Assembly (NCBI GenBank): GCA_907163375.1 | Contig: CAJQUW010008614.1 | Coordinates: forward strand, 310,001-374,000 | Length of the DNA: 64,000 nucleotides | Origin: Prostheceraeus crozeri | Lineage: Eukaryota > Platyhelminthes > Polycladida > Euryleptidae | Direction of reading: 5' to 3' | Shown here: positions 1 through 42,746 of the stretch, piece by piece | How positions within the stretch are numbered: position 1 is the first letter of the stretch | How the letters are laid out: every line of letters starts with the position of its first letter | Made by a program: the position numbers and the translations under genes | The notes under the pieces: model-generated | Database searches by the model: none | Told to the model about the DNA's origin: nothing | Seen by the model: the letters and a program-made list of their open reading frames with translations, nothing else

Positions 1-991
1 CAGTGTAGGTACAAAGGCTTTATCATTCAGAGTATGGCAAGAACGCGAGAGCACCGGATGCTCGTACCATAAAGTGGTGGCACACAAACCTGTTGATCAA
101 TGGTAGTGTGGTGACTGTCAAGCGGGACCGGTCATCTTCTGAACGAACGGAGCAGAATGTGGAACGAGTTGTGCAGCACTTCGAGGAAGACCCAAACACA
201 TCTACCCGTCGTGCATCTAATGTCTTCAAGTGAGTCGCCGCACTATCCAGCGCATCCTCCATGACTATAGATGGCATCCGAACAAGGTCCAGGTGGTACA
301 GCGATTACACGAAGAAGATCTGGAAAACCGAATGGAGTTCGCAGAACAGGAGCTACAGCGCATCCAAGCCAACCCGAGCCATTTAGTGGAACTAACCTGG
401 TCCGATGAAGCTCACTTCAATCTGGATGGTGGTGTGAATCGCCACAATTGTCGTTATTGGGCCAACCAGAACCCTCACTGGATCAAGCAAGAGTCTATGC
501 ACTCGCCACGCACCACCGTCTGGGCGGCAATCAGCCAATTAGGTATCTACGGACCGTTCTTCTTCGACACCTCCGTCAACAAGGATCGGTATCTCAAGAT
601 GCTACAGGAGGAAATTTGGCCAGCGCTGCAGTCGGACAGAAGAGGCAGGAGCATCATATTCATGCAGGGTGGTGCACCTCCACACTGGGGACTTCCTGTG
701 CGTGAGTGGTTGAACAAGAAGATGCCTAACAGATGGATGGGACGTGGATCTCCTAACATGCCCTGGCCACCGCGTTCACCTGACCTGACGCCTTGCGATT
801 TCTTCTTGTGCGGTTTTGTCAAGTCCAAGGTATACCATACACGGCCAACATTCATGCAAAACCTGAAGGACCGCATCATACAAGCATTTCAAGAAGTGAC
901 AACTGAGATGTGTCGAGAAACTGCTGTGGCCTACCAAAAGCAACTCGAATCCGTCCTCGAGAATGGAGGAGGACACATTGAAGTTCGATGA
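1..991 (+). pseudogene. DDE_3 (IS630/Tc1-mariner superfamily) transposase, frameshifted, catalytic Asp lost
   Basis: The main reading frame is 230-991. Counting from its GTG, it has the first catalytic region WSDEAHF (residues 57-63), a second region MQGGAPPHW (145-153) and a third, SPDLTPCDFF (183-192). Positions 1-229 encode the upstream helix-turn-helix part (VKRDRSSSERTEQNVE and NTSTRRA) in another frame, so a frameshift lies near 228. In this family the second region carries an invariant Asp before Gly-Ala-Pro; here it is Gly (residue 147), a likely single A-to-G change. The C-terminus GGGHIEVR is family-typical. The 5' end of the element lies outside the window and no terminal repeat was found downstream. 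It is a dead transposase relic. Confidence 0.88.
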
Positions 992-2211: not shown

Positions 2212-3342
2212 CAGTCCGTTTCATAAAAAGTAGATCATCCTAAAATTTGACTAAATAAAACATAACTATGATACAGAAAGCATTTTTCATGTTATTTCAT
2301 GTCCCTAATATATTTAAATGTCCTTATATAATCTGATAAGCTATGATACAGTAACGGTTCTTAAGAAGCTAATATTTTGTGGCCCTACCCTTATTGTCAA
2401 TGACATTACCAATTCGTCTAGGCATTGATTCGATGATATCGTTGATTTTTGACTGATCTAACTTTCTCCACTCTCTTTTTAACAGTGACGTAAGTTGTGA
2501 TACGCCATCTGTAGGTAGCAGTGAACGACGAACGTTACGTTTTAGAATACTCCATACATTTTCTATGGGATTCAGATCAGGAGAACGAGCTGGCCAAGAT
2601 AATGTCCTAAGCCCTAATTGAGACTTGCATAATTTGACTCTACTACTCCTGTGACACGTAGCATTATCATCCATAAATAACCAAGTCGATGGATCACCAA
2701 GTTGATCTGTCATTTGGCCAATGTTCATTCGTAAAGCATTCACATAGTGTTCAGAATTCATGTTTCCTTGCTGTATGTGAAGTAGTTCTAGCAAGGCTGA
2801 TACTTTGCCTTTTGTGAGTGCGATCTCGTTATTGTTCATTTGTGCTTTGTATTGTTTTCAACCGGTAAGAGATAGATTTCTAGCTGAAAGCAATCAGGAG
2901 TGCTGCCAACACCACCGCAACGAAGTCAGGAAGCTATGGAACATGAAGTCCAGTTAATCACATGTAGCAGTTACATTATTGTTGATGAATAATGGTGCTA
3001 TACTGGCTCTGATTGACCGATTTTCTTTATTTTTGTTATGCTTGATAGCTTTTGGATTGTAGAACAACATATTACATAACAAAGGAAACAAATGTAATTT
3101 TATAAGAGTGAGGTATGATTTTGTGTAACATTGCTAAATGAAGATCAAATTGTCTACTACTTTTTTATCTATAACAGGAAAACAACTCAATATTCATGCT
3201 TGAAATTTCCAACAATGATATTAGTAAGCACAACTGACATATATTCCAAATTTCAGAGAAATTCGTTCAAGTTTGGTGGAGTTAGACAAAGTTGAAGTTA
3301 AGGCGATGTTTAAGGGTGATCCATTTTTTATGAAACAATCTG
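2212..3342 (-). mobile_element. Tc1/mariner element, internally deleted (1131 bp)
   Basis: Imperfect terminal inverted repeats of about 30 bp are visible: the left end reads CAGTCCGTTTCATAAAAA and the right end, in reverse complement, CAGATTGTTTCATAAAAA. Both are flanked by TA (2210-2211 and 3343-3344), the target duplication of this superfamily. The element contains only the C-terminal half of a transposase, so it is shorter than an autonomous copy. Confidence 0.85.
2369..2839 (-). pseudogene. Tc1-family transposase, C-terminal fragment (DD34E)
   Basis: The 156-residue frame holds the second and third catalytic motifs of Tc1 transposases: FMDDNATCH (D58) and SPDLNPIENVW (E93), 34 residues apart, and ends with the family-typical SMPRRI...KGRATKY. 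The N-terminal DNA-binding domains and first catalytic Asp are missing; the sequence from 2840 to 3310 does not restore them. It could not encode an active enzyme. Confidence 0.9.
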
Positions 3343-9281: not shown

Positions 9282-9838
9282 CTATACTACGAGGATAGCT
9301 TTAGCTGAGAAGATCCATTGAAGATGTGACATCTCCCCTTGAGCTGATATTCATCACATGTTGTCTTTGCCTTGCGATGAAACAGTTGGCAATACCCGTC
9401 TTTACCTGTAGAGGATGGCTGGACTGATAAATGGGCACTGTGTTCGTATTTGTGGATTATTAGAACACTGATATGGCCATTGTTTCACCTCGTCTTTCAA
9501 TCATGGCATCCAGCTTTGAAATGCTAGTATAAGTCTCCATTTCTCGAGTATACTTTATATTTGTAGAAAACAGAGCATCTTGCAGACTGTATTCAACTAT
9601 CACTAGAGTGTTATCCACATACCGCACGAATGGGTTCACACTACTTGGAAGCGACTGAAGAACTCTTCCTCAAGTTCTTGCATAAAGAGCTCAAACATTA
9701 CTGGTCACACAGTAATCCAATAGGACAGGTTGAAGATTTGAAGAAGGACGTAAGACATTTGAAGCACGTTTCTTCCATGCTGAGTCTGAGCAATTCTTCG
9801 ATTTAGTTGATGGAGAGTGAAGTTCGTGGTGACAGGGA
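9282..9838 (-). pseudogene. Penelope-like element B, RT C-terminal half (segment 2 of 3)
   Basis: On the minus strand, starting at the edge of the large transposon, the translation includes SLSPRTSLSIN, LRLSMEETCFKC, CPIGLL, then FVRYVDNTLVIVEYSLQDAL with the catalytic box as YVDN (second Asp lost) and STNTNTVPIYQSSHPLQ. It continues the RT read at 19298-19700 and runs towards the nuclease at 8107-8429. Several frame breaks and stops are present. Confidence 0.75.
9834..9838. repeat. Target-site duplication, left copy (AGGGA)
   Basis: AGGGA directly abuts the CACGGTG terminus. The right copy (19298-19301) reads AGGA, one G short. Joining the Penelope-like RT across the insertion with one AGGGA keeps the codon phase, which supports a 5-bp duplication with a single-base deletion on the right. 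Confidence 0.72.
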
Positions 9839-10294
9839 CACGGTGCTCCATCACTTTAACCTTAAAAAATTGTCCATCAAATCTGAAAGTTGTTTCTAAA
9901 CCAAAATTTTAAGCAGAAGAGGAATTTTGCATTTCAAAATTAATTTATCGAGACCATCAAAAGATATTTGGAATTTATTGATCGGAATCGATTTGATTGA
10001 TTAGTACTGATTGATTTTTGTTAGGATAATGTTTGAAGTTCATAAAGCGAGTTTTCTAGATCAAAATCTTTCGGAGAAAACGATTTTAATACCTAAAAGC
10101 TCATTCAATACCTTCTTTTAATGTTATAGATGATTTATTGATCAGTATCGATAAGTATCGATCTGATTGATTGGTAGTGATTGATTTACGCTGGGACAGC
10201 AGTTCAGGTTTATGAAGCAATTTTTTGCGTAGAAAACGAATGTAATACTTAAAATGTCATGAGATACATTGTTTGCACCTGATAGATGATTATT
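9839..10294 (+). repeat. Left terminal inverted repeat with internal ~155-bp subrepeats
   Basis: This arm matches the reverse complement of 18826-19297 nearly throughout. It contains diverged tandem units of about 155 bp whose starts read TTTATTGATCGGAATC (near 9976), TTTATTGATCAGTATC (near 10134) and TTATTGATCAGTATC (near 10289), with TGATTGATT clusters after each. After the CACGGTG heptamer there is an A-rich tract but no recognisable nonamer. Confidence 0.85.
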
Positions 10295-11595
10295 GATCAG
10301 TATCAATCTGATTAATTTTTAATGACTGATTTGTCATGTATATGGTCAACTCTACCCTTGAGATTCATATATTTTCTCGATTTATTTCGTAGGTGCATAA
10401 GGTGTTCACATACATCTTAATTAAGTATTGAAGACAGTTTGTTGAGGATCATCTTCTGATTGATTGCTATTGATTGATTAACTATGAAATTCTAAACTTG
10501 CAATCAGAACTGAACTGAAACATTCTGACTAATTGAGTGCTTCTTGATCTTGAGATCAATCGCGTTTCATCTGCAGATACATGTAGCAGACCGATTACTG
10601 CAATCATGTCCAATATGCTGATCACAGCAAGGTTCGCGATCAGGCTATTGTTTATAGATTGATCGCATAGTAGGTCTACAGGCAACCTACAGCTAATTAC
10701 TCATCAACCGGCCACAAATTGTAATAGTTTCAAGAGTGGGCTCATATTATGGAGAAAATATCTCTTATCAACATATCAAAAATCTAGGAAAATCTAGTTA
10801 GTGGAACACCCTGAACTTTCCACTTACAGTCACGAGCCTTTTCGAAATGCAAAGACACGCTTACTCCAATAAAATCGCACATTTAGATAGTAATAGCCAA
10901 TCAAAATGGACCGCTGCAGCTTTCTCTCACTAGCTGCATTTACCGTCCACATGGCCCTCAACAATATCAGCCATGTTTTCTGAATTGCTTCCTTTCCACG
11001 CGCCTAGATTTCTTAGTCACTATAGTTCAACAATACATGTACAATCTGCAGATGCAAGTTGCACAAGTTAAGCCACAAATCTGCGAGTTTTGCCATCAAT
11101 AAACGATTACTTTTTGCAACTACCGTCTTGTGAAAACGCATAACTGTTTAAGACGCTAGGTCGAAACGAGTTTGAGCACCATTGTCTTGTAGATAATCTC
11201 CTAGGTACCTACCTTTGGGGTGCAAATTGATAAAGATTTGTATGAGTTAGAAAAATAAATTTGATCTAATAGACAATCATTGATATAAATACACACAGAT
11301 TTTTCCTTTGCCATAGGCAAATTTGTGTCAATTTACATCTATGGATACTTTGAAATGTGTATTATATGATAAGTGAGCGTAAATGCGTTTTTGATAGAGA
11401 TTCTTGAATTTCTATGCACATTCACAAGAGAGTACTTGCAAAAAAGCTTCGATTTTTGATAGAAAAAATGGAAAAAAATCTCACTTTCAAAAAAAATGAA
11501 AAAAATTCACAAATTCCAAGTTACCGAGCAAGAGACCCCCTCCGAAGACCTCCGACGGCAGTGGACAAGTCACTTACCAACAGACCTTCCATAGC
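10295..11595. other. Interior of the RAG1/Transib-type element, 5' region
   Basis: AT-rich sequence continuing the GATTGATT-rich pattern to about 10480, then no clear coding region. The minus-strand frame 10482-10685 and plus-strand frame 11414-11599 lack motifs. This is where upstream exons of the transposase would be expected. Confidence 0.45.
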
Positions 11596-12960
11596 TTGAA
11601 AGTTTGCGGTATGTGCTTGTCTGAAAAGAAAAACCTCATCGCAACTGGAATCGTTATGCATTATCAACTGGAACAGATTATGCATACATACATTGATGAG
11701 TCTCATTCTCAAAACGATGATGTGTCCTTGACATCGCCGAGAGGTGGTAGACCTCTGAAGTTGCTTTGTCGCAGATAAGAAGACTGTCGAGCCCAAGTTT
11801 CATGCACTACTATTTCTACGATGCAATCAGAATTGAATTTGAGCAATCGTGAAACACTGAAGATGTGTCAAGAATTGAGGAAAACAGCAAATATCTATAT
11901 ATTGATTGAACCTAATCTGCGAGAGCATCTAAGGGGCTAGAGACCATCTTATCGGTGAATTTTTTTAAATGGGAATGATCGTCATGAAATTGGGTACGGT
12001 TGCAGCTGTTAAGCTTACACCTGTTGTTGTCTGCAAAGATGTTTAACATCTCGTGAAATTCATTCTCGAGAAAAGAAACATTACGCATGACTACAGTATC
12101 AAAGTTTACATCGATGGAGGTGGTGGATTTATGAAGATATCTATCTGATGCAAATTGCAAGAGACAATATAAGATCACTGGAGCAAAACATATATTTATT
12201 GTCGATATCGCACCAAATGTGCAAGAAAATTACCCCAATATTCTAAAACTTTTGGGCATCCACACGCATGAATGACTTGGATTTCAGCGACGAAAAGCTA
12301 ATAATTGCTTGTGACATGAAACTTGCGAATTGGATATTAGGACTGATGTCGCATGGTGCAACATTTCCGTGTTGTTGGTGCACGAAGAAGAAAAGCGATT
12401 TGAGTGGATTTGGTCCCTGTCGTACATTTGAATCATTAAAGGAAATGTGTTGGTCGTATTATGACACTTGTCAAGACATTGTCAAGAAGCCACATTTTTT
12501 CAAAATGTTGTCCACCCCAGTATTGTCAATAATGATTCCACGAAACAAATAATTGATGTGATTCCCGCGCCAGAACTCCATTTGTTGATTGGAGTAGTCA
12601 ATACCCTATTTAAATCTTTGACAGAGACTTGGCCTGGCTCATCAGCATGGACACAACGACTTCACATTGAAAGGTAGGCCTATTACAGGAGAACGTTCAC
12701 AGGAAATTCCTATATGAAGCTCCTGTCAAATATTGACCTTCTTCAATCAAGAATCTCTGGAAATTTTAGATCAGTCTATTCCTTGTGCTCTGGTGATCAT
12801 CGCTGTGTTCTTCGTTCATTCATATTCTGTGGAGCATTGCTATTATCATCGTTTTTTCGCCGTTGTCCACGTCGATACCAGTGAATTCCATTCAGAGTGT
12901 GCAATCTGCCATTCTTGCCTTCTGTTGGTGTCTGTTGCGGAAATTTGACGTCACAGGGTA
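11596..12960 (+). pseudogene. RAG1/Transib-family transposase, N-terminal and central part
   Basis: In several frames the translation reads a CxxC segment (VCGMCLSEKK, from 11596), then LSNRETLKMCQELRKTAN and IEPNLREHL (11830-11940). Next is the first acidic site in VYIDGGGGFMKIS (Asp codon 12113-12115), then HIFIVDIAPNVQENYPNI, and the second acidic site CDMKLANWILGL (Asp 12313-12315). This is followed by PCCWC with Cys codons at 12370 and 12379, exactly 19 and 22 residues after the Asp. Vertebrate RAG1 has the same spacing (D708 to C727 and C730). ELHLLIGVVNTLF and, after an in-frame TAG (12675-12677), RRTFTGNSYMKLLSNIDLL follow. At least three frameshifts or stops make it inactive. Confidence 0.82.
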
Positions 12961-13029
12961 TCAGACATATTATGCACTGGATTTTCATTTATCCGGGTTA
13001 TGAAGAAGCAATTACAACTCTTGTAGATT

Positions 13030-13098
13030 GGCTGTCATGGTCTACTGAACTAAGTGTTTGACTAGTGATCTGTTTGGTCAGAGTTCGAGTCCCAACCA
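13030..13098 (+). other. tRNA-like sequence (possible SINE head or internal Pol III promoter)
   Basis: The stretch starts GGCTGTCATGGTCTACTGA, resembling a tRNA 5' end with A box, and contains GTTCGAGTCCC (13083-13093), a near-consensus B box, followed by CAACCA. The arms do not fold into a convincing cloverleaf by eye, so a functional tRNA is unlikely. It lies just upstream of a LINE endonuclease frame. Confidence 0.4.
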
Positions 13099-13146
13099 TT
13101 CTGTTTTCTTCGAAACTCTTTGGATTAAACTAACACGTACATTTGT

Positions 13147-16100
13147 ATGGGATTGATTACTTTTCTTATTTTGTTGGTGATAATAATGCCGAAAACCTTT
13201 TCTGATCTTTATGGATTCAAGACGAAGCACAAGAAGCAACTATGCATTGGTCAACTAAATGTGAACTCAATACGAAAAGAGGAAGATAGACCTCTAAATA
13301 CTCTGAAGCATGACTACTTAGACAAGCTCAGACTTGATATACTTAGTATTCAAGAAACAAAAATCGATGGAAGCACGTCTGATAACGAACTTCTCCACTC
13401 TGGTTACCGCACCTTTTGCGAGGGTAAAAGAAAACATGGTGGAATTCTTGTATATGGGGGTGAAACTTTGCCAATCGTTCAAATTCCATGTTCCATTGAA
13501 AAAGGAAAAGCTTTTGAAGCTATTGAATGTGTTGTTTTACATGTGTGTGCAATCGATTTACGCTTTGTTTTGGTCAGTTTATATCGAAAACCATCTAAAT
13601 CTCTCAAAACTGCTAGAGAAGAAATGGAGTTTGTTTTGACATTAGCCAGCTCCATAGAACCAGATATTCTTGTTACTGGGGATTTGAATTTATGTGCTCT
13701 AGGCACCCAGACTCAACAGCATCAAAATTTGCTGAATGATGTGCGTGATCAATTCAACATCGATTGCCAGATCAATGAACCAACTCGTCCCGAAAGTGGA
13801 TCCTGTTTGGATGTAATTCTTTGTAATGAAGACCTTGTATCAGAAGCTGTTGTTCATGATCCAGGACTATCCTAACACTGTATGGTTGTCGCAGCATTAA
13901 ATTGCACGTGTCCAGTGATTGAGAAAAGATATTTTAAATGTCGCTCCTTCAAAAACTTTGACGCCATGAAATTTCTATCTGACATTCGTGACGCTCTTCC
14001 GATATTCTACACATCCTCTATTTTTGCTTCGATTGATGAAATGTATGACTTTATTCATTCTATATACATTGAAATATTGGATGAGCATGCCCCTTGGATA
14101 GAGATGAATGTGCGCCCCAACAGGGTTCCTTGGTATACAGGAAAAATCGCTTACGCACGTCGCCAGAAGCATCATTGGCTAAATCAAACTCCAAAAGATG
14201 ATAATGGTAAAAGGGTTAAAAACAGCTATGCCTGGAATAACAAAATGTACTGGCAGAAGGTCGAACGCAGATTGAATCGCGAAGCTGCAACTGCGTTTTT
14301 CAGGAGAAAATGTAATTCTGATAAACCGAATGACTTTTATCGACTTGTTGAATCTCATATGCATAGCAGAAAAGTTAGGGATAACACGAAAATCTTTTTG
14401 ATCAGTGAGAACCAATATATAGTTGATGATGAAAAAGTCATGGACCAGCTTGGGGAACATTTTACTCATCTTGGTAGCAACATCAACAAACAAACAGCGA
14501 CAAACAACTTGACGTACTTGATGAAAATTGTATGAGTATTGATATCATACGTAGAGATGTTGGGACTATACTACCATTTGAATTTTCGAAAATAACAGCG
14601 AAAGATGTGGAAGATGTCATTAAGAACAAATGTGGGAAATCAAATGGAATTGATGGTGTTCCAGCGAGAGCAGTTAAAGCTTCGAGTGTTGAATTCAGCA
14701 ATGTACTCAGTTTTCTTTTCAACTGCATGATTCAATTATGTGAGTTTCCCACTGCTTTAAAACGTGGGGCATGGACTCCAGTTTTTAAAGGTGGCTCCCG
14801 TGTTGATGTAACACGATATCGTCCAGTGACTGTCCTATGTCATCATGCAAAGATTATGGAAACTGTTATGACAAGGCAATTATCGACTCATGTTCTACAC
14901 ATGCTATCGCCATACCAATTTGCCTATAAGAAGAACTACAGCACTGAGTCTGCACTATTGTATATGGTTGAATGCTGGAAATCTGCACTAGAGCTACGAG
15001 AAAATGTCGGCATTATATCTCTCGATCTAACAGCTGCATTTGACAGTATTCCTCATTCATTGATGTTAAGAAAGCTAGAAGCCTATGGATTGTCAACATC
15101 GTCGCTATTACTCATGAAATCCTATCTTTCATCAAGAAAGAACCGTGTTCGATTATAGGGAAAAGTGTCAGAAAAATGGTTTGAAACACAACGAGGTATT
15201 CCTCAGGGATCTCAGTGGGGACCATTGCTATGGAATGTCTATTTTAATGATATTCTTCCATTCATTCGATCTACAGGTGCTGAAGTCATTGCTTATGCAG
15301 ATGATGTCACAGTTTGGGTAAGGGATGTATCTGCAACAAAGGTGCAAGATCGTCTAAGGGACACCATTCAAGCAATTCTTTGTTGGCTTAAAGACAATGG
15401 TCTCAAACCAAATCCGCAGAAATTTCAGTGTATGGCTTTGGGACACGATAAAGAGAAGATACAATTCAACGCTCATGACATAACTTTAGAAAGCTTGAAG
15501 TGTATTAAATTATTGGGAGTCATAATAGATTCTGAATTCAAGTATGATAACCAAGTGAAAGAAATCTCAAGGAAAGTTGCGTGGAAGTTGTCTGGTATAA
15601 ATCGCCTTAAGCATTATACTAGCAGCAGAATGAGATGGAGACTTGTTCAGACATATATAGTGCCTCATTTTGACTATGCATCAATTCTCTTCTTGTTTTT
15701 ATCGGCTTCTCTAACGAAGAAAATAGATACGATGTTTAATCGGTGTATTCGTGCTGCCGCGAGAGATTTCAAAAACCCAGTTTGTGAACTTGTTTCCAAA
15801 TTTGATGCTCTTAGAATTCCTGTTCGGTGGCACATGGCTCTTTTCCGGCTTATGCAAGCTATCGCTAAAACGAAGACTGAGCTGAATGCAAGTCGTGACA
15901 GAGGATCATTCATTAAAAACTTCCAGTTTAGTGTTGGTTATGCACCATTAGTATTCGATGAACTGTTTATTTTGAGTGAGAATACTCACCACAATGTTTT
16001 CGTGCAGCCACGTGTTTGCAGTGTTAAGTTTGGCAAAAATAGTGTTAGAAGTTATGGGACTAGCTTTTGGAACAAAGTGCCTGAGACATTACGACAAGTA

Positions 16101-16302
16101 AAGTACAAAAGTCCGTCCATCATTGACTTTTTAAGATCATATTTACAGAAGCAGTCCGGTATTCAGACCTCAATTTACACCGCTTAACTTGCATGACTTT
16201 CAATGATTTTCTCTTTTTTTTCTTCATGTTATCGTTTTTTGTGTGTCTTTTGTGTCACATGCATCCCAGATGTAGTGAAAAATATATAAATCTTGAATCT
16301 TG
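13147..16302 (+). pseudogene. CR1/Jockey-type LINE ORF2 (endonuclease + RT), four disruptions or fewer
   Basis: An apurinic-type endonuclease is read from 13147: QLNVNSIRKE, SIQETKIDG, LVTGDLNLCA. The catalytic SDH motif is broken because its Asp codon is TAA (13873-13875, giving S-stop-H). Reading resumes in the same frame from 13876 to 14535. A frameshift near 14530 leads to the RT with LDLTAAFDSIPH (motif A, Asp kept), an in-frame TAG (15156-15158), GIPQGSQWGPLL (motif B) and YADDVTVW (motif C). It ends at the stop 16185-16187 after a conserved C-terminal domain (SYGTSFWNKVPETLR). The 3' tail ends near 16302 in a short AATCTTG repeat. It splits the RAG1/Transib-type transposase. Confidence 0.88.
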
Positions 16303-16389
16303 TAAAGACTTTCCGATGCTTTTCAAAGGTAGGAACCAACTGTTTACACATTTTGATCAATTTGAACTAAGAATCCTTCTAACTTTCAG

Positions 16390-16683
16390 GTTTCTGCCCC
16401 GTGCCTTGGTCGTGAATTGGAACCAACATACATAGATGACATCAACACCTCAAAATTGCTCCAACACCGAAAGTGTGCGCCCATTTTTTGGCATGTTCCT
16501 GAGTTTTGCGAGCACCGCAATGATGGTTTGGGTCGATTTTCTGAACAGTCCGGTGAATCAGCTCATCGCGATTTTTCATTAATTTGGAAAGATTACAAAA
16601 TCAATTCATCTTCTCATCCTGGTTTTGGTGATCAGTTGAAGCGCACTGTCTGTGCCTATAATGGGCATCATATTTATTGCTAA
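16390..16683 (+). pseudogene. RAG1/Transib-family transposase, C-terminal part with the third acidic site
   Basis: The segment reads LGRELEPTYIDDIN (frame change near 16420), then FWHVPEFCEHRNDGLGRFSE and ESAHRDFSLIWKDY, ending at TAA 16681-16683. In RAG1 a zinc-binding His is followed by Val-Pro-Glu and, 20 residues later, by catalytic E962. Here His (16492-16494) is followed by VPE and by Glu at +17 (16543) and +21 (16555). A polypyrimidine stretch with TTTCAG at 16384-16389 looks like a splice acceptor, so this may have been a separate exon. It continues the gene interrupted by the LINE. Confidence 0.8.
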
Positions 16684-18481
16684 AAGATCTTATAACACAG
16701 AGATGGACATATTTCAGGAATAATGAGACGACCAAATACCAGTACTTGAAAGACAAGGTTGAAACAGAGATCAAGAAAGCAAAATTGGCGTGGTATCACA
16801 GGTGTGCAAATTCAAATAAGAACATGTGGAATATTTGCCAAAGAGATCGTACCAAATCAGAACTGCAATGTATTTAGCACTCTTTTGGAAGATTATGGCA
16901 ACTATTTCAACATTGGCGAAGAAATAAACAATAAGCTATTGTTAGACAATGATGCACATATCCTTTTGCACAACAAGGAAGTATGCAATCATCCTGATCA
17001 TATGCCTTTAATAACAGTTGATCAACTATGTTCATAAAATTGAATACCAAAAAATCATGCGCCCCTGACGGTATTCCTATTGGACTACTCGAAGAAGCAG
17101 CATATTTGCTTGTGGAACCGTTTACCCATATCATAAACTCCTGCTTAATTGAATGCCATATTCCCGAGAAACTTAAATGCGCCGATATATGCCCAATTCC
17201 CAAAACTAAGCCTATTGACATTGAGAACATCAGACCTATTTCTGTAATGACAGTTCAGATGAAGATGCTTGAAAAACACGTTTTAAATTGCGTACAAGAT
17301 CATATTGATCGAACTGCTGGTAAATATCAATATGCATACAAGAAAATGTCATCAACAACATGTGCCCTAATTGATCTACATGAGAAAGTCACTTGTGCAC
17401 TGGATAGGAAAAGCACAGAAGCAGTAATTGTGCTCAGCTTCGATTATTCCAGAGCATTTGAGAAAGTCATAGTAGCCAACTTAATTTCAAAAATGAGGGA
17501 CATGAATTTCCCACCTGAATTTGTATGTTTTACATATAACTACTTGCAAGAACGATCACAATGTGTCAGATTGAATAATCAACGCAGCTCATTCCGTCGA
17601 GTAAATAGAGGGGTACCACAAGGATCAATTTTGGAACCTCAGTATTTCAATATTTACCTGAATTCGCTGAGACCCTTAAATCTAAGTACTCACATGATTA
17701 AGTACGCCGATGACGTCACGATGACCATAACGATCAATAAGGAAACAAGAGCGGAAGACATTGACAAAATGAGCAACGAAATACAGCAAATTACTGCCTG
17801 GTCGATATCAAACGGTCTAAAGCTAAATGCTTCAAAAACGAAAATGATTGTGGTGTCAAAGAACCAAGAGATCAAAGGTATTTTGAAAAGTAAATTTCAT
17901 GACATAAACTGCTGCAGTGAAATGAAGCTCCTAGGGGTGGTTTGGACTGAAGACCTTAAATGGAAAACGCACTTCAATCGTTTGATAAAGAGGACATCCC
18001 AGCGGTTATATATCATTCGCAAATTGAGGAATGTACTGGATCGAAAATCCCTGAAACGAGCTTGCATGTCGCTTATTTTTGCTCCAATTGAGCACGCGTT
18101 CCCTCTGTTCTGCAAACTGGACAGTGAGACAGTAAGATCAATAGAGATACTACAGACGAGGTGTTCTAAGGTTATCAATGGAAGAAATGCGAAAAATATT
18201 TTTGAAAAACCCCAATGTCGGTTGAATAAAGGACTTCTACGACTCTACGACAAAGCTGTAAAAGAAAAGCATCCACTTCATCATTTGCACGAAGAATCGA
18301 ATTTGAAGTCAAAACAACAATTTTTGCTCGCACCAAACGTCGACAAAACTCATTTTTGATATATGCCAGTTTACTGAAATGTGGTTTTGAGTAACTTTTT
18401 CACTTTGAATGACTTTGAATTACGTCGTTATGTTTTGATCATGACTTTGAATATAAACATTTATTATTATTATTATTATAT
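16677..18481 (+). pseudogene. CR1-like LINE, 5'-truncated, RT nearly intact
   Basis: The pre-RT linker starts at the element edge (LLKDLITQRWTYFRNNETTK, 16677-16877). After frame changes near 16870 and 17035, a 443-residue frame (17028-18359) carries IPIPKT-like RT motif 1 (CPIPKTKPIDIENIRPIS), motif A SFDYSRAFEKV (Asp kept), motif B NRGVPQGSILEPQYF (altered after GSIL) and motif C YADDVTMT, then thumb and C-terminal regions. The 3' end is a (TTA)n tail at about 18456-18481, typical of this LINE group. It lacks the endonuclease. Confidence 0.87.
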
Positions 18482-18825
18482 TACTGGTTAAATTTGATAA
18501 ATGTAATGTCATATGATACCACTTTTGATTATTTTTTAAATATGATTACATTAAAAATACTTATCTTCTAAATTTACATTGCTAGAATGGATAGATAAGT
18601 AGGTCTGCGTTAAGAACTACGTGTTCAATAAGATCATATCAAGTAATAGGCCTATTTCGTGTGGAAATTAGGCCTACAGCTACCGATGCATGCAAAAAAT
18701 TGAAATCGTCTTTATTGCTCTATTTTTAGAAATACATGTACCTCTACATGAATTGACTTTCGAATAAGAGTAGGCCTATATCAGGTATACACGTAGAAGC
18801 CAATACATCACTGTATGTATGTTAA

Positions 18826-19297
18826 ATAATAATCATCTATCAGGTGCAAACAATGTATCTCATGACATTTTAAGTACTACATTCGTTTTCTACGCAAAAA
18901 ATTGCTTTGGAAAAATTGCTTCATAAACCTGAACTGCTGTCCCAGCGTAAATCAATCACTACCAATCAATCAGATCGATACTTATCGATACTGATCAATC
19001 AATCATCTATAACATTAAAAGAAGGTATTGAATGAGCTTTTAGGTATTAAAATCGTTTTCTCCGAAAGATTTTGATCTAGAAAACTCGCTTTATGAACTT
19101 CAAACATTATCCTAACAAAAATCAGTCAGTACTAATCAATCAAATCGATTCCGATCAAAAAATTGCAAATATCTTTTGATGGTCTCGATAAATTAATTTT
19201 GAAATGCAAAATTCCTCTTCTGCTTAAAATTTTGGTTTAGAAACAACTTTCAGATTTAATGGACAATTTTTTAAGGTTAAAGTGATGGAGCACCGTG
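18826..19297 (-). repeat. Right terminal inverted repeat of the RAG1/Transib-type element
   Basis: Reverse complement of 9839-10294 with few differences, including a roughly 15-bp local duplication around 18900-18920. It ends with CACCGTG at 19291-19297 and is followed by AGGAGGGATC of the interrupted Penelope-like gene. Confidence 0.85.
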
Positions 19298-19700
19298 AGG
19301 AGGGATCGACTTTCAAGCGATCGATGGCGATGTTCACACCTTCATTCGCAGGCACTGTTCCAAAGAGTTTGACAACATCGTAGATCACTCATCGATGAGA
19401 CGATTTTAGTTGGATAGTCCGTAGAATGTCACGCAACTGAGCTGAGTTCTTTTATCTCCTGGATGTATATTTTCCAATAACGGCTGTAGGATCTTTGATA
19501 CCATGGCACTAATGTCCAATGATCCAATAAAGAAAACGATTGGACGAAGCGGTATGCCTTCTTTATGGACCGTGGGAATAATTAGACTCAGATACGATTA
19601 AGTCCAAACGCTGTCTTCGAGTAACGTCATTGTTCTTCTACAGACGCTTCAGGATATTCGTCAATTTATTGGACACAGTCTTTCTACTTACTAATATGTT
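19298..19700 (-). pseudogene. Penelope-like element B, RT N-terminal half (segment 3 of 3)
   Basis: Minus-strand translation gives TVHKEGIPLRPIVFFIGS, SKILQPLLENIHPGDK, VIYDVVKLFGTVPANEG (RT motif A region) and IAIDRLKVDPS, stopping at the transposon end. The next residues of the same gene are found at 9838 downwards. The order and codon phase show that the 9.46-kb transposon was inserted between them. Confidence 0.78.
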
Positions 19701-20150: not shown

Positions 20151-21634
20151 TGTCACGACCGGTTTCAGTGTATTTTTTAGACCATCATCAGGTGTATGTA
20201 CAGGCATGGAAAAAATCGACGTATATACTACAATGATTAAAGCTAAATGAGAATAATAATCAGTAAAATTGCGTCTGTCAGGTCACAGAAAGACTCACAG
20301 CTTGAATGAGGAATCGTATTCATTCAGCAAGGTTCTGTCACTGCTATGACAAAGTGCGATACTTTCAGCTATTTTTGTGTAGGGCCTACTTGGTTTTGTA
20401 GATTATCGAGAAATCTTCAAGGTCAGCGGAGCGCAGATGTTTAGAAATTTCAGTTTCATTAGGGATGCCGCGAATACCTATGTTCTTTCATTCTAGAGAT
20501 GACGACGCTTAGTCTCACCAATATAGCTGCTTGAGCACAACTTACAAGTAACTTTATAAACGACATCAGAGGAGAGACTAAACTTCAATCTGTCTTTGTT
20601 TGGAAAAAGGTTAGCAGTCTTTAGAGTTCTGTAAGAAACAATAATGTTATGATTCGTTGGAAGGATTTTGTTCAAAATATCAACAGTCTTTTTAGTTTGA
20701 CTTTCAAGACTTTTGACATAAGGGAGGCGCCAGCATATGTTTTTAATATATCGCGATTGCTAGGTTGGAAATTGTCAGCATTATTTCTAATTCTGTCGAT
20801 ATGTTCATTAGAGTAACCATTGACAGTGAAAATACATTGGATGACAAAGAAACTGCTTTCATAGGCATTTTGACTACTACTTAACCGCTTTGCCCGAATA
20901 ATCAAGGCGCGAATGGCTGACGTTTTATATCTAACAGGAGCATGAGCACTGTTAGGAATATATAAACCAGTGTTGGTATCTTTCAAATGCCAATGATAAT
21001 TCAAAGAATTAGCATTTTTAGTGACCATAACATCGAGGAATTTTAATTGATTATTAGCCTGTTTCTCACAAGTAAAACGAATACTACGGTGAATACTGTT
21101 AAGAGAATGCAAAAGCTTTTCAGCATCCTTTTCGTTTCTAACGATAGCAAAAAGATCATCGACATACCGCCGATTCATCGCAAAAGATGCCAAAGTTGGG
21201 CCGAGGATCGATCCATGGCAACGCCTTCGATTTGATGGTAGATATTATCATTAAATTGGAACAGTATATTTTTACACGATACATTTAGGAGGGAAATCAT
21301 GGTTCCTTTATCGACCGGAAAGCTAGTGAAATCAATTAAATTACAAATATGATCGAAAGTATCGCTGAGAGGAATACTCGAAAATAAGCTCACAACGTCA
21401 TACGAGACAAGATCGTAAAAAAGATCATGAGAAATATCTTTGATCCAATCAACGAATTCGAATGCGTCTTTCAGATCTTGAGAGCGAGGAATGTATGGTT
21501 TCAGAATTTGATTTAGCCACCTTCTGCTTAAGCTGGTATTGTATGCTTTTGGCATACTTAAAATAGGACGCAAAGGTGGATTGGAACGTAATTTGTGTAA
21601 CCTAGGCAGCCATATAGCCTGGGCTGGCTGACTA
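20151..21634 (-). pseudogene. Penelope-like element A, left copy: RT and GIY-YIG part
   Basis: This is a near-identical reverse complement of 49083-50572. On the minus strand it encodes RT (LVSYDVVSLFSSIPLSD and RRYVDDLFAIV with the catalytic YVDD), then YHWHLKDTNTGLY, then the nuclease start VVYKVTCKLCSSSYIGETK. A one-base deletion relative to the right copy changes frame just after the VAM motif (near 21215), and further shifts separate RT and nuclease. Between VAM and YVDD about 30 residues usual for Penelope RTs are missing in both copies. The 3' end is marked by GAAACCGGTCGTGACA. Confidence 0.9.
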
Positions 21635-22031
21635 CTTTTGGCGAGACTTGAAAATAATGTAGGTGTAAGCTGAAGACTTAAAGGCCTTGTAATTCATCTT
21701 CAAATGTGGATGGAAGCGGCATCGTCAACAAGAACTATGAACTAAGTCAAGAAACCCAGGCTCTTAGCTTGGGCTTTTCCATGTGCTGTCCTCAAAAGGT
21801 CAATGCGTTTGATGAACAGAAACTGAAGTTGTTTTCAACAATGCTGCGAAAGTAAGTTTGAGTAAAGATGATGAGGAAATTCAAGTCTTTGGCTTACACT
21901 TGCAGTAATGACAAGTCTCGCCAAAAGTTCTTGACTGGCAAAATCAAAACTATCCGTAATTAGCGAGAAATAAAAACCTTTACGTTACAAAGTTTGACAA
22001 AGGCAACGGCGTTTGTATTATGGATAAAAAT
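21635..22031 (+). pseudogene. Penelope-like element, N-terminal part in opposite orientation
   Basis: Plus-strand translation includes LSQETQALSLGFSMCCPQ and FDEQKLKLFSTML (21735-21850), typical of the region ahead of the Penelope RT, and then matches 48791-48905 with about 10-15 percent differences (FTLQSLTKATAFVLWIK). It abuts the inverted RT part at 21634, and CTTTTGGCGAGACTTG (21635) has its reverse complement near 21911. So this locus holds a rearranged copy, or two copies of different age. Confidence 0.65.
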
Positions 22032-28913: not shown

Positions 28914-30734
28914 GTGATGTTAGTACCAGCTCAAGCGGTCAGTCGCGGGAATCTAATGAGCGGGAATGTGCTGATTGTGGTCACATCTTTATAAGGAAGC
29001 GTGATCTCGCCCGACACATCAGACAACGTGTATGTCAACCCAAGACATCATCAATCTCCCGAGGTGAGGATGATTCTATTCAACATGTCTCCTTTACTTG
29101 CGACTTTTGCACGCTATCTTTGAAACACGTTTTGAATTTTCTTCACATAGACTTCACCACGCGCATACAAATGATAGTTATAGTAACAGCACCTCCTCTA
29201 TCCGTCTCACTGAAGTGTCTCTCAATAATGTAGTGAGAAATTTCCATATGGAATCCTCAGAAACCATTGCTGATTTTCCGGAGTGGTTTCATCAAAATTC
29301 AATATTAATAGATGCGTTCTTTAGAAATTTAGACAACTTTAGAATAAAAGCGCTCATCTATCTTAAAATAAAATATGTTAAAGTTGATCATCATACTGGC
29401 GAAGTAGTGCAGAGATTGGAGTTTCACATACCCTCCTCCCCTGCTACAGAGGTAGTAGATAAAGAAGTATGGTTAAATTTTCACATTCAAGGGCTAAATT
29501 CAAATATTCATAAATTTAACGAGCGCGATAGTGGTCTGATTTTTGATGGTGTAGAATCTGCCATGTTTAAAATTACTCTATTAGCAAATTACAGTGGACG
29601 AGGCCTCTTCAATCTTCCAAAAACGTTAGAAGATAAGAAAGCAGTCATTTCTATAGATTGTGAATTGCACTGTTTTAAGTATGCGGTTTTATCCATTCTC
29701 CGCTATCATGATGTACAGAACAACCGTTTCCGTAAAACCAAATATCATCAATGGGAGAATGAATTGAAATTTGATGACTGTAATAGTGAAGATATAAAAT
29801 TGAAAGATACAGAGAAATTTGAAAAATTAAATGAAATTAAAATGGTTGTTCACGTCTGGCAAAAAGGACTTAAAGGTGTACGCTACAACAAACGTTCATC
29901 AACTTATGATCGTGTTGTCAACCTCTTGTTGGTATATGAGGATAGCAGTCAACAATGGCATTACTGCGGTATTCCAAATGTTCATCGACTATATTCCCAC
30001 TTAACATCCAAAAGGGGTAGCATTTCATATGTGACCGTTTATGAGATCCTTCTGGTCAAAAGATAATTTTCAAACACATTATGAATGGTGTAAGCGAGGT
30101 AAATTGCAAATGGAACGCATGCCCAAAGATAAAATCTTTTCATATAGAGAGAATGGTAGTGAGTTAAGTCCTCTTCGTGTCATCTATGCTGACATCGATT
30201 GCTATATGGATGATAACATCCACAAGCCAGCAGCCATATCCTGTTATGAGGTATGGCATATTCATTTCCAAAATAAAAATAATAAAATGCACGTCTTGCA
30301 AGGTGAGGATTGTATACACAAATTCTTGCAATTCCTGGAAAGTGCTAGTAAATTTCAACAAAAATATGATAGTGAACTCGATCACAGATCATTAAATATG
30401 ACAGCAGATGATCAGGTAAAATTTGAAAGTTGTAAAGTCTGCTCAAAATGTAGTAAAACGTTCGATGACGGTAAAATTAAGAAAGTGCGTGAACATGATC
30501 ACATCACTGGTAAATTTAGAAACGCACTGTGTTCAAGATGCAATTTTTCTCTAAGAATGAAACGGCGCACTCTACCCGTAATTTTTCATAATTTCAAAGG
30601 CTATGACAGCCATATGATAATAAAAGGGGGGTCAGGAAAAATTAAGGGGTGGTTGATGAATGTTATAGCTCAAACGAGGGAAAAATCCATGTCCATGACA
30701 GCAAAAGTACCAGTTGATAAGACTAAAGAGATAA

Positions 30735-30785
30735 GATGAGATAAGATAATAAGATAATAAGATAATAAGATAAGATGATAAGACA
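30735..30785 (+). repeat. GATAA/ATAAG microsatellite inside the polymerase gene
   Basis: Repeated GATAAGATAA units with changes of spacing. They break the polymerase frame and suggest slippage-driven decay. Confidence 0.8.
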
Positions 30786-32319
30786 GTCTACTTTGATATG
30801 AAATTCTTAGATTCCTATCAATTCATGACTTCATCACTAGCATCTCTCGTTCAAAATATTAAGTCTCTTCCACTAACTCAAAATTTGAAGAAACAATATC
30901 CTAACTTGACAGATGAAGTCATCACATGCAAATGACTGTTTCCGTATGCATAATCTGACAACATTTCTAAATTTAGTGAGACTTTTCTTCCATCAATAGA
31001 TAAATTTAAAAATGATTTGACTGGTATAGAATGTAAGGTAGCAGATTACAATGATGCTCAAATTAATTGGACAAAATTTGACTGTCAAACGTTTAGCGAT
31101 TATATGATCGCCTATCTAAAATTAGATGTATTTTTGCTGGCTGATGTATTTCAGGAGTTTCGACGAGTGACACTGGAAGAAGATAAATTAGACCCTATCC
31201 ACTTTGTCAGTCTTCCAGCCATGTCATTCCAGTCTGCTTTTAAAATGACTGGAGAGAGCATCCATCTTATACAAGATCCAGAGATGTATAATTTATTTGA
31301 GCGATGAATTCGCGGTAGTCTCACATTTGTAAATAGACATCAAAAATTATCAAAAATAGTAGATGATGATCAGATTCATCTAAAGTACTATGACCAGAAT
31401 AATTTATATGGTAGTTCACTATCCAAACCTCTACCTCACTCTGAGTTTAGCTGGCTAGTGGATAGTGAAATTCAACATTTCTCCAATCCTTCAAGCATAT
31501 TAGCTTTTCCAGGTGATGGTGATTGTAGATATTATTTCGAGGTAGATCTTATCTATCCACATAGTATTAAAAATAAAACTGTGGATTTTCCACTTGCGTC
31601 CGAATCAGGTGAAGTGACTGAAGACATGTTTTCGGACTTTATGAAAAAAATTTCATTAAGATTTCGAAAGGAGTGGACAGCACAAGTATAAGCCTTGTCG
31701 CAAACTTTTGTTTACTCAATTTGATAAAGAAAATTATCTAGTCCACTTTTCCATCTTAAAATTTTATTTAGAAATGGGCATGATTTTAAAAACAGTTCAC
31801 CGCATTATCAAATTTAGACAGAAAGCCTTTCTGAAACCTCATATTGATAGTAACAGCCAGAAACGTGCACTAGCCCAAAATAATTTTGAAAAGGATTTTT
31901 ATAAATATAAGAATAATAGTCTTTTTGGTAAGACGATGGAGGATGTTAGAAAACGTATAAACTATAAACTTGTGAATCATAATGATAAATTTCAAAAGTT
32001 AGTGGCATCACCTCTCTTTATTGATGGAGATATCATAGATGATGAATTGGTTGGTGTTAAAATGATAAAATCAGAAGTAGAGTTGTGCAAGCCCATCATC
32101 CTGATGCAAACATATCACTAACCAAAAGAATTAAACTCACACTACCACATTCAGGAGATGTGTAAATAGATTCAGTCTCAAATCAGTATTTTGATGATGC
32201 TTTTGTTGACATTCATTGTTGTTTTATGTATCGCTTTAGATTGTACTTCCTTGTGAATATATGCCTACAGTCAGCTCATTCCCCCTATATCTGTGAAAAG
32301 ACTTTTTCATACACATATT

Positions 32320-32333
32320 TTTATTTCAATAAA
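32320..32333. terminator. Overlapping convergent poly(A) signals
   Basis: AATAAA on the plus strand (32328-32333) and its reverse complement TTTATT (32320-32325) serve the polymerase and the leftward gene ending at 32349. Confidence 0.6.
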
Positions 32334-32348
32334 CATATCACAATGACT

Positions 32349-33899
32349 TCACTTTGTTTTCCGAAACACTAAAGTTACGAGGGATTTAGTATCTTTCACA
32401 TGGATGAACTCATGTAGACCATTTGTAATTTTGATAGAAATAGATGGTATAGTTTGTTTGATAACAAGATGGTAGAAAATAGGTTGAAACATCTTCTCGA
32501 CCATTCCATATAAAGCATCCTTATTATGAATGAAATCACGTAAAATGTGTTCTTTTTCCTCCCCAACAGAAATAGGTAGAATCAAATCACTTTGAATGTA
32601 AAGGTGCTGTTCATGTTTATCAAGTGTCATTGGTGTTTCTATACCAATCGTATGCGCAACAGTAAACATATTTTGTAGCATTGAAAAACCAAAGAGTTTT
32701 TTCAAATTTTTGCTCAATTGACATTGAATGTCATCACCCAGTTTCAGAACAACGCGTTGATTTTCAATTGAAAACGAAATGTAGTGTGTCTTTACATCAT
32801 ACTTACTTTTCATCACATGCTTCAACTTCTGTTGTATATAAGGATTTATTACATGAATGAAGCTTTCAACTGTATGATATAGACACGGCATTATATTGAT
32901 AGCAACTTTAGATTCTTCATAAGACTGGTAAATTTTCTTGATGCGATCACCATAGATGTCCACCCACCATTCATCATTAACTGAATCAGCTTTAGTGTGA
33001 TATTCATGAGAAGCATAAACCAAACCGCTTCCAATAATGGGTGTATAATGTCTTACAAAATGACGCAAGGTTGGAGAGAAATAAACTGTAAGTTTGTCAT
33101 TATATTTCTGAATAACCAACTTATCTTTGTCCGCCATAATTTTCTCTCCATACTTCTTACCCACAGTCTCATTCCATCGTTTTACTAACTCAATAAGTGA
33201 TAAAGGTTGAACACCACGCTTTTTCAAAATGATGCGTTCTTCACATTCTACAACATCTTAATCAAATATTTTAAATTTATAATGAAATTTGTTGATTCGA
33301 TTTGAATAAACTTTTTTAACATTTGCAATAGCAATTGACGTTAGATGTAGTCCATGACCAAAACCGAGATGTGGATAGAATTCATTATCCAACCTCAGCG
33401 TAAGACCTTTAGTAAAAGAATGCAAGCGAAGGAAAGGTCTCCTACTCCAATGATAGATAGTAAACTCATAAACTTTCTGATCCTTATTCTTCATGATGGA
33501 AGTATTACCATCATTGAATCCCTCAATAATTTTCTCATTCCCAAATAGACCATAATAATCTGATTTTATCTGAATCCATTCATAGTTCCACTTTCCATCT
33601 GACGTTAAATTGTACGGGAACTGGAATGCATTATTTATCGTTATTCCATCATGGGTGCGAGGAGTCAATATCATTTCTTCCAAATCATTCACATTCTGAA
33701 TATTGCTATCATAGCAAATACTAGAAATACCTACTTTCCATTCACTTTCTAGATGTAGTGAGCGATTTAATTCTACTCGAAAGTCTGATGGTTTATTATT
33801 AGGAAATTTATTCATAGAAGCATTACTGGGTAAGTAGATTAGAAACGAGTCCTTATTTTCACTTTCCATACTAATCACATTGGAAAAATATATTAGCAT
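32349..33899 (-). pseudogene. Polinton structural protein paralog 2, split by an in-frame stop
   Basis: Two frames in the same phase, 33899-33258 (213 residues) and 33257-32349 (about 300), are separated only by TAA 33258-33260. The second has no early ATG, so one protein of about 515 residues was probably intact before. The N-terminal part has SFLIYLPSNASMNKFPNN and LESEWKVGISSI. The C-terminal part ends ISIKITNGLHEFIHV ... TLVFRK. The same N- and C-terminal arrangement occurs in the next gene, so both are probably virion proteins of one family found in invertebrate Polintons. The exact structural role (penton, fibre or minor capsid) cannot be told from sequence. Confidence 0.65.
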
Positions 33900-33908
33900 A
33901 CTTTTGCA

Positions 33909-35320
33909 TTAACTCTTCATTCGGAAATGGAGTGTGATACTTGTTACAGCATCTTTATGAAAAGGAATCAACGCACCAGCATCGTCATAAATTGCAATAT
34001 CAATTTGTGGGATGTAGTTTGATTTCAGCTTTGTATAATGCACTTTCTTGAAAGTATGCTCAGATAAAATACTGCAGCTTTTTGGCTGGTATGGTATCAT
34101 TGCTAGCAATGGAGCTTCAACATCTCCCACACGTACATCTTCACCAATATTGGAATATATCTGAAAATAGTTAATGCTAGCTTTGGTTACAGTACCACTT
34201 TTAAAGATATTTTGATCAAAATCCAAAATGTCCATTAGAGTTTTATCCATAATTAGTTCAATACCTTTTCCACTTATAGTGAGAGACAAAGCACCTTCTT
34301 TTTCAGAAAATGAAATATGTTGCTCATTAATCACTTCATTTAAATAATCTACAACCAATTTAACTGAAGTGATAATGCGAGGCATCAACACTCTTGTTTC
34401 ATGTAAGATACCACCTAAAGGCTCTATACGCTTTCTGTATAAAGATACGATCCATTCTGTATCAAATTGATTTGACCTTTCACATGGTAAATGTTGCATA
34501 TTAAATTTTCCATGGACAGCTGCAGAACGATGTCGTAAGAACTGATGAAAATCTTTTGAACAAACTAATACTAGATCATCATCATTTAATGTACTTATTA
34601 CAATATGATTAGATGATTTGATACAAGTCAATGTTGCCACTTGTTTACCATCAACTCGAATGAGCTAATTAAATTTCTTCAATAATGTTTCAGGAGTCAT
34701 GTTTGTCTTTCTTGGCTTAATCACAATCTTCTTCACCAACGTCTTCTCATTTCTTGGAATAAGATCTACATAATAAGCTTCCTCTCGATATATTAACTAT
34801 TTATGACTACTTGGGTAGTAATTAACGTTATAATTATGATAGTTTGTTAAGGCGCTAGCGAGGTAACCTAAATCATTTCTTAAACTTGGACTTGGTTAGA
34901 ACTGGTTGTTGGACTTCTTTAAATTGGACCAACAATCCAATCTTTCTCAACTAAATGATGTACATAATTATGATCGTCATTGTGCGGAGTAAATTGGACA
35001 ATATGTTTACACGCTTTATTCAGGAAATCATAAACGAATTTCTGACGTGATAGAATATCTTTCTTCGGCCATTGTGGAATGTATACTCGGCAGCCCTTTT
35101 CACATTGGTAAGCAGCTGTGAGTCTCATATTAATAGTCATCACCTCATGATCAAAAGTATAGACACAGTTACTGTGAACAAGTTGTGTGACCCCTACTTC
35201 CCACTCTCCATTCAGCTGTTGTATATTATCAATTGGAGTAGAAAAGATAGCGACTCGATTACTATCAAATCTATTTGTTGCTACATTGCTAAGCACAATA
35301 TGGTAAAATGACATTTTCAT
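33909..35320 (-). pseudogene. Polinton structural protein paralog 1, broken between halves
   Basis: N-terminal frame 35320-34919 (133 residues) carries LNGEWEVGVTQLVHS, and C-terminal frame 34640-33909 (243 residues) ends in IDIAIYDDAGALIPF followed by SITLHFRMKS. Between them (34641-34918) the C-terminal frame can be followed upstream through an in-frame TAA near 34668 (EEAYYVDLIPRNEK, KPRKTNMTPETLLKKFN), with stops before that. It is therefore one former gene with several lesions. The C-terminal extension aligns with paralog 2 (KPRKTNM-ETLLKKFN against KKRGVQP-IELVKRWN). Confidence 0.65.
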
Positions 35321-35358
35321 ATTCTGGTGATCTATATATTACCCATTTGCATAACATC

Positions 35359-35755
35359 ATGAAGACTTGGATTTTAGATTCTCAACAATACATCAAAGTT
35401 GATCGCAATGGATACGTTCATTTCAAAAATTCTCATGGAAATACATCGAGAGGAATTACATTAACATAGCGACAATTTTGTAAATCTTAATGACATCATG
35501 AGGGATTTGGAATATTTTGAAACGCTAAAATTCATCTCTTTGGGTAATCAAGTTTGGCTTCAACATTACAGAAAGGAAATTCAAATCTGTCATTCTGATT
35601 CCTCAATCTATTTTTTATTTCGCAAATACAATTGGGAAAAATATAAAAGATGGTTCATCGCTCCATTATGTCATTTATTCGTCGAGAGTTCATCGCTTTG
35701 CTATGCAAATCTTAATCAGACACCACCCTCAACACAATGTTACGCTCCATCATGA
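35359..35755 (+). pseudogene. Polinton small module protein, copy 1 (broken)
   Basis: ATG 35359 begins MKTWILDSQQYIKVDRNGYV. It meets TAG at LT-stop-RQF where copy 2 has LSYRHF, then shifts frame near 35480 into LNDIMRDLEYFETLKF, SLGNQVWL and NWEKYKRWFIA. The same order of segments is found in the next gene. No family is certain; the pattern of short strands ending in a W-Y helix recalls small ssDNA-binding coactivator folds such as PC4, but this is only an impression. Confidence 0.6.
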
Positions 35756-36076
35756 AGAGTTGGAAATTAGATTCCCTACAACATGTTGAGATTGATTATG
35801 ATCAAAACGTTTATTTCAACGACTATACTGGAAATATGAGAAGAGAATTTGCTTTATCATATCGACATTTTCAATGCCTAAATCATATCATGAAGGACTT
35901 GAAATATTTCTATATGAAAAGGCATTCACGCATAGGAAATCGCATATGGTTGCGACTAAAGAAGCAACGAATACAAATCTATCATTCCCAACTTTCTATC
36001 TGCTTCACATTTCATCAAGGTAGTTGGGAAAAGTATAAAAGGAAGATACATCGCTCTATTTACTCATTTTTTCATC
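35752..36076 (+). CDS. Polinton small module protein, copy 2
   Basis: ATG 35752 begins MKSWKLDSLQHVEIDYDQNV, followed by LSYRHFQCLNHIMKDLKYF, RIGNRIWLRLKKQRI and GSWEKYKRKIHRSIYSFF, mirroring copy 1 over about 108 residues. The frame stays open to 36564, but after about 36080 it runs over the TBP-like gene in a different frame and then, by that gene's frameshift, through its second half. The native end is probably just after 36076. Function unknown. Confidence 0.55.
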
Positions 36077-36564
36077 ATGAGACGTCATCGTTACACCATC
36101 GTCAACATTCTCCACCGCATCAGACTCTATACCAAAATCGATCTCGCAACATTACATCAACAAATTCCAAACAGCAAGTATTATCCGGGTCGACCGCAAA
36201 TGTTAGTGGTGAAGATGAGCAATTTTTTAGGAACCTTCAACTCTTTCCAAATGGGACGATACAAATTCTCGGCGCCCTTTCTCATTCATCGGCGCCGGTA
36301 ATGCGCTTAGAAATGCAGAAGCTACTACGTCGGATATGGAAGAGGGAGAAATGTGTGATGTCGAATCTGACTGTGAACAATCTGGTGATCTCTAGTCAAT
36401 TGAGTGAAAATGTATCGTATTCGAAGATTCATAGCAGCAGCTACAATTTATGTTATGAACCAAGACTTTTTCCTGCAGCTCTCATTAATTGTTGGAATCC
36501 TGTAAATATTGCAATCTTTCACGACACTAAAGTTATCATTACTGGACTGAAATCAGAAGTGTAA
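36077..36564 (+). pseudogene. TATA-binding-protein-like gene in a Polinton (one frameshift)
   Basis: ATG 36077 starts MRRHRYTIVNILHRIRLYTK, then IDLATLHQQIPNSKYYPGRP and MLVVKM. A frameshift between about 36220 and 36250 leads to LFPNGTIQILGALSHSS and VMRLEMQKLL. The second half repeats the pattern: MSNLTVNNLVISSQLSE, then YNLCYEPRLFPAALI, IAIFHDTKVIITGLKSEV. Two repeats of the type N-V-N ... Y-P-x-x-F/P ... I-F ... G ... TG-x-KS are the signature of the TBP saddle. The length, about 162 residues, fits a TBP core with no N-terminal extension. A role in transcribing the element's own TATA-bearing genes is an inference. Confidence 0.75.
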
Positions 36565-36619
36565 GCAGATACAATCCCAGACCGTTTAATCGAATTTGTA
36601 CATACCGAGCGGATTGTGA

Positions 36620-38396: not shown

Positions 38397-38441
38397 GATT
38401 AGAAGTTATGACAGCGTCGCCGTTTAGCACGCGATGAAGTA

Positions 38442-42743: not shown

Positions 42744-42746
42744 GCA

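Follow-up and report, generated by a model that had tools for sequence, protein, structure and literature searches.

A decayed transposon, probably of the Chapaev group, with long terminal inverted repeats in the genome of Prostheceraeus crozeri

Chapaev elements are described as having target duplications of 3-4 bp, CAC..GTG ends and the motifs C(2)C, LH and H(4)H, and Chapaev3 elements as duplicating TWA (PMC4079192). DUF1280 corresponds to the Chapaev transposases, and clade II contains RAG1 together with DUF1280 (PMC3985635). The account in PMC4411706 places the Chapaev clade within a broadly drawn Transib superfamily, with a zinc-finger 'Chapa' domain linking Chapaev to RAG1. RAG-like transposons (RAGL) are reported to have 5-bp duplications, a convergent RAG1L-RAG2L pair and, in protostomes, an end beginning CACTWMCAAAC (PMC7204232). 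The element described here is of a kind already known: it is very probably a dead cut-and-paste transposon of the Chapaev group, inserted in an older Penelope-like element and later struck by two reverse-transcriptase elements. On present evidence the branch is Chapaev, not RAGL or Transib.

The window, i.e. the whole stretch of 64,000 nucleotides that was analysed (G000:C7170:310001-374000), belongs to a genome of 2.05 Gb. The initial annotation had seen a real transposon here, with inverted repeats of about 460 bp that start with CACGGTG, and this was borne out by the arms, ends and transposase pieces, which are all present. Comparison of the window with itself gave one inverted pair of 387 nt (9839-10225 / 18911-19297) and a second of 80 nt (10215-10294 / 18828-18907), each 99 % complementary. 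Over their whole length the arms are 98.7 % identical (456 aligned sites), and each consists of an outer part of ~134 bp followed by two imperfect direct repeats of ~160 bp. The termini read CACGGTG...CACCGTG, so that both ends are CACGGTG, and the junctions with the flanks are ...AGGGA/CACGGTG on the left and CACCGTG/AGGAGGGA on the right. The features of the element are as follows.

9835..9838, no strand: 4-bp target duplication, left copy (GGGA)
9839..10304, plus strand: left terminal inverted repeat, starting with CACGGTG, from self-matches of the window and the consensus
10301..10664, plus strand: subterminal stretch common to other copies, from DNA matches to other loci
10665..11499, no strand: stretch without a DNA match in the compared loci L009-L028
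11503..12749, plus strand: decayed main exon of the transposase, matching P0001 residues 121-548
12750..16301, plus strand: insertion with a non-LTR retrotransposon, which also fills the position of the transposase intron
16384..16674, plus strand: decayed last exon of the transposase, matching P0002 residues 569-672
16690..18360, plus strand: second reverse-transcriptase insertion (RVT_1), outer limits approximate
18828..19297, minus strand: right terminal inverted repeat
19298..19301, no strand: 4-bp target duplication, right copy (AGGA), with three of four bases equal to the left copy

The subterminal stretch (from its positions 1-3 to 364) is 85-87 % identical to L013, L025 and L024, other loci matching less well or in part. 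The stretch that follows it occupies the place where other copies have an N-terminal Cys-rich domain; residues 1-120 of P0001 were not found in the window, and were found in L009, L011, L025 and others.

The reverse-transcriptase insertions at 12750-16301 and about 16690-18360 are not part of the transposon. The first contains an endonuclease ORF (13129-13875) and reverse transcriptase ORFs extending to 16187; Pfam matches in the two insertions were to Exo_endo_phos and RVT_1, the RVT_1 match of the second spanning 17022-18356 (4.9e-29). In another copy, L017, the first insertion is absent and the two transposase pieces adjoin with a short gap between them, and we therefore regard the insertion in the window as younger than the transposon. 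The non-LTR retrotransposon at 13129-16187 has 17 other copies that match 920 or more of 1,001 bases at 97-99 % identity, and is a recent burst. The transposon itself sits within a Penelope-like reverse transcriptase identified by eye on the minus strand (9300-9838 and 19298-19700). When these flanks are joined, the Penelope-like frame on one side of the junction is offset by one base from that on the other, which by our reading fits four added bases, although the shift alone is equally what five bases minus one would give. Proteins resembling Penelope-like reverse transcriptases were also recognised by eye at 20672-21693 (minus strand) and 48727-49905 (plus strand). Elsewhere in the window, a run of long ORFs at ~29000-44000 resembles a Maverick/Polinton element (integrase-like at 38902-39759, and others), and ORFs at 221-991 (plus strand), 2369-2857 (minus strand) and 51939-52760 (minus strand) resemble Tc1/mariner-type transposases, all as judged by eye.

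A search of the genome with the left arm, in which 40 of 258 candidates were scored, gave at least 41 matches, the two arms of the window included. Further copies, for which the initial annotation had proposed such a search, are thus present, and CACGGTG is their common end, with single-base changes in some old copies (CAG in L014, the right end of L036). Paired ends were sought in 29 loci fetched around arm matches, giving a usable two-ended set of 15 copies plus the window. The count leaves out L017 and L023 (with one unclear end each; an earlier arm tree had both in its 15 pairs), L031 (the same insertion as L012), L032 (an inverted duplication including flank) and ten loci with a single usable end. 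L012 and L031 are one insertion on two contigs (C3361 and C10585) with somewhat different sequence, i.e. an allele, a haplotig or a segmental duplication.

For these 16 pairs the k bases ahead of the left end were compared with the k bases past the right end and set against shuffles. Among the lengths compared only k = 4 stood out: 6 of 16 pairs were exact and 11 had at most one mismatch, a result equalled by none of 20,000 shuffles, and 67 % of positions were equal (28 % in shuffles). Five pairs (L009, L013, L014, L016 and L036) have at most two of four bases equal. With k = 3, 25 % of positions were equal (shuffle mean 26 %) and one pair in 16 was exact, and the 3-bp TWA duplication of Chapaev3 was not seen in the 16 pairs. 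The 5-bp duplication characteristic of Transib and RAGL was likewise not observed in them (k = 5: no pair exact, none with one mismatch, 25 % equal positions vs 26 % in shuffles). The initial annotation had read a 5-bp duplication with one base lost (TCCCT/AGGGA), which is compatible with the window alone and is ruled out by the 16 pairs. As these favour 4 bp, the window's own duplication is best read as GGGA/AGGA, with one substitution.

The transposase pieces in the window contain the DG-GG, CDMK...CCWC and HVPE...SE...ES blocks that had been noticed earlier, and counting by hand agreed with the reported spacings D-19-C, D-22-C and H-21-E. The main exon is matched by P0001 (2.8e-71) and the last exon by P0002 (1.3e-20), so that both pieces with motif blocks belong to one protein family. 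The first Asp codon lies at 12113-12115, the second at 12313-12315 and the zinc Cys codons at 12370-12372 and 12379-12381; in the last exon HVPE starts at 16492 and the codon of the catalytic Glu is 16555-16557. The copy is visibly decayed. Compared with a majority consensus built from 12 rows, the window included, the transposase has 91.7 % identity and 14 indels, 11 of which are not multiples of three; its first part has four stops in 427 codons, and Ala (16477-16479) stands in place of the first zinc His seen in other copies. A second related relic was seen at 54494-54622 on the minus strand, where a last-exon block (HIVTANVGDFCEEANAGLGSYSQQAFERVH) is matched by P0002 at 2e-5.

A first protein search with a short piece of the transposase gave no relatives, and the majority protein recovered 62, with E values down to 3.4e-190. 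Motif conservation among them is high: in their alignment A2 (62 rows, counted over covered rows) the conserved columns were D1 57/57, D2 62/62, C1 62/62, C2 61/62, LH 59/59, H1 46/46, H2 44/47 and E 43/43. The spacing D-19-C-22-C was found in 54 of the 61 proteins with the simple pattern (other values in seven), H-21-E in all 40 proteins with the pattern, and TPK[VIL]H-x4-H, whose spacing is set by the pattern itself, in 42 of the 62 relatives. The relatives thus have the C(2)C, LH and H(4)H motifs with DDE, the window copy being without the first His. They also have Cys pairs at the N terminus, which by our reading resemble the Chapaev zinc domain as presented in PMC4411706. In viral contigs tblastn gave no relatives; 43 stretches there fit a pattern only.

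A better-preserved sister family occurs in the same genome. P0001, 66 % identical to the majority protein across 78 % of the latter, has at least 88 matches (77 of 5,604 candidates scored), many at 96-98 % identity and several free of stops over the matched part. Long open frames also occur in three more matches at 44 % identity (C9478, C949; C4689), of which one has a stop. Two copies of the P0001 type, L044 and L045, were fetched. The element L044:746-4664 (3,919 bp) has an exact GGCA on either flank and terminal repeats of 494 bp with 99 % identity. The first exon has an open frame of 567 codons and is followed by a GT..AG intron and a last exon open to the stop. Judged by their lengths, the remaining stretches (408 bp before exon 1, an intron of ~285 bp and about 220 bp after exon 2) are too small to hold a RAG2-like gene. 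L044 has Tyr in place of the first zinc Cys and is for that reason not called active. L045 is 97 % identical to L044 over 3,842 columns, and its right arm is truncated by some 78 bp on the outer side.

A tree built from all arms placed both arms of a copy as sisters in 10 of 16 pairs; an earlier tree of other rows had, by our reading, 13 of 15 sister pairs. In the window copy, L009, L010, L011 and L015 the arms are 97.9-99.6 % identical to each other and at most 91.0 % identical to the best match elsewhere. Private changes occur in both arms of one copy, e.g. a 4-base gap after CTCC in the window that is absent from the other listed copies. The duplications of these five copies, chosen for their high arm identity, differ at 6 of 20 positions, against 0.25 expected from the arm divergence (p 2.5e-7), or without L009 at 3 of 16 against 0.23 (p 0.0017), and the insertions thus look older than their own arms. 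Gene conversion from arm to arm looks capable of producing this. Against it, six of the 16 pairs are not sisters, and of the six copies whose duplication is intact, five have arms less than 90 % identical; merging of the two arms in the assembly could also be a source of the likeness. Dating the conversion by the nested LINE was tried and rejected, since the LINE is of roughly the same young age as the arms and so cannot show conversion after its insertion. For Galileo, long repeats that fold back and recombine have been discussed (PMC2775673), and in Tm1 elements the arm identity within copies averages 93.15 % (PMC3169594). If confirmed, the similarity between arms would be a caution for dating such elements by their repeats. 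L032:206-1790 shows an inverted duplication that takes in the arms together with 16 bp or more of flank (ctatctgaagacaaag / ctttgtcttcagatag); this looks like a fold-back copy extending past the element, or like an assembly fault.

The RSS heptamer is CACAGTG, with which CACGGTG has six of seven bases in common; a nonamer at 12 or 23 is absent. The spacing D-19-C-22-C is that of D708, C727 and C730 of RAG1. The H-x4-H motif corresponds to H937/H942 of RAG1, a piece of the mouse protein being identical to PDB chains at residues 934-1018; the chain in PDB 6oem has Gln at RAG1 position 962. The predicted model, made for the relative P0002 and not for the window's own protein, could be superposed on RAG1 over 412 residues at 3.4 A and on HzTransib/Transib over 366 residues at 2.9 A, so that among the relatives a RAG1-core fold with DDE and a C2/H2 zinc site is predicted. 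This kinship was visible by fold comparison only. Sequence searches were blank: neither the transposase pieces nor the majority protein had a relevant Pfam match, and in PDB the queries (last exon of the window, majority protein, profile A1) matched neither RAG1 nor Transib.

The initial annotation had proposed a true RAGL or Transib transposon with 5-bp duplications and long repeats, a reading to which the predicted fold, the motif spacing and the CAC end with its likeness to the RSS heptamer give some colour. It is very unlikely, as the 16 pairs have no 5-bp signal, either exact or with one mismatch, and the window-family end continues CACGGTGCTCC, unlike the protostome end in PMC7204232, which also describes a convergent RAG2L, whereas L044 holds one gene. 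The RAG2-like partner that the initial annotation had proposed to look for has, by the available room, no place in L044. What stands of the claimed RAG relationship is the RAG1-type signature and the shared predicted fold; the 4-bp duplication speaks against membership in RAGL or Transib proper. A Chapaev assignment is in line with the duplication of 4 bp (GGCA/GGCA in L044), the CAC..GTG ends and the transposase motifs. Of 38 relatives, 11 matched DUF1280 at E <= 1; when ten were scanned individually, one exceeded the cut-off (P0007, 29.6 vs 25 bits), two fell below it and seven had no match at E <= 0.1. Since these matches are weak, the Chapaev label rests mainly on the hallmarks. A DUF1280 search of the genome gave none, as did the control genomes, and is hence uninformative. 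The weak scores, together with the lack of relevant Pfam or PDB matches of the majority protein by sequence, could also point to a separate, undescribed lineage of EnSpm-Mirage-Chapaev-Transib that has Chapaev hallmarks and lies outside Chapaev, and Plavaka, ESTA and Lanisha are named as further lineages in the clade (PMC12730594). Such a lineage seems improbable, given that the element has the hallmarks listed in PMC4079192 and N-terminal Cys pairs that we read as similar to the zinc domain in PMC4411706.

By homology with RAG1 and Transib, the Chapaev-type transposase, encoded by two exons, would bind the ~460-bp repeats as a dimer, cut beside CACGGTG through a DDE site of RNase-H type supported by the C2/H2 zinc site, and insert with a stagger of 4 bp. 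The same homology would supply the chemistry, any hairpins and the choice of the repeats bound. A tentative and rather doubtful extension is that the genome holds a recently spread, perhaps mobile, RAG2-less transposon of the RAG clade with a 4-bp stagger, whose ~490-bp repeats are overwritten from arm to arm within copies, which would keep the arms alike as the flanks and the interior decay. RAG1, the enzyme that assembles antibody genes, has cousins in the Chapaev transposases, and the many P0001 copies at 96-98 % identity, some with open frames, offer material to sort which features of RAG1 (the 5-bp stagger, the dependence on RAG2, the split signal) are as old as the clade and which came later.

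The relatives share with RAG1 the spacing of D-19-C-22-C and H-x4-H, the distance from His to Glu being 20 in RAG1 vs 21 here; RAG1/ProtoRAG differs in that here the duplication is 4 bp, the nonamer is absent and the sister element is without a RAG2 partner. Transib has the DDE and C2H2 zinc layout and the CAC end in common with the element but duplicates 5 bp instead of 4, and canonical Transib is described in PMC4411706 as having no domain in addition to the core, whereas an N-terminal Cys-rich domain is found in the relatives here. The TWA target of 3 bp separates Chapaev3. With Chapaev the element shares the CAC..GTG ends, the 4-bp duplication, C(2)C, LH and H(4)H, and its relatives have the N-terminal Cys-rich domain; it differs in its terminal repeats of 460-494 bp and, in the window's family, in the internal duplication of ~160 bp within them, both of which other Chapaev families may share.
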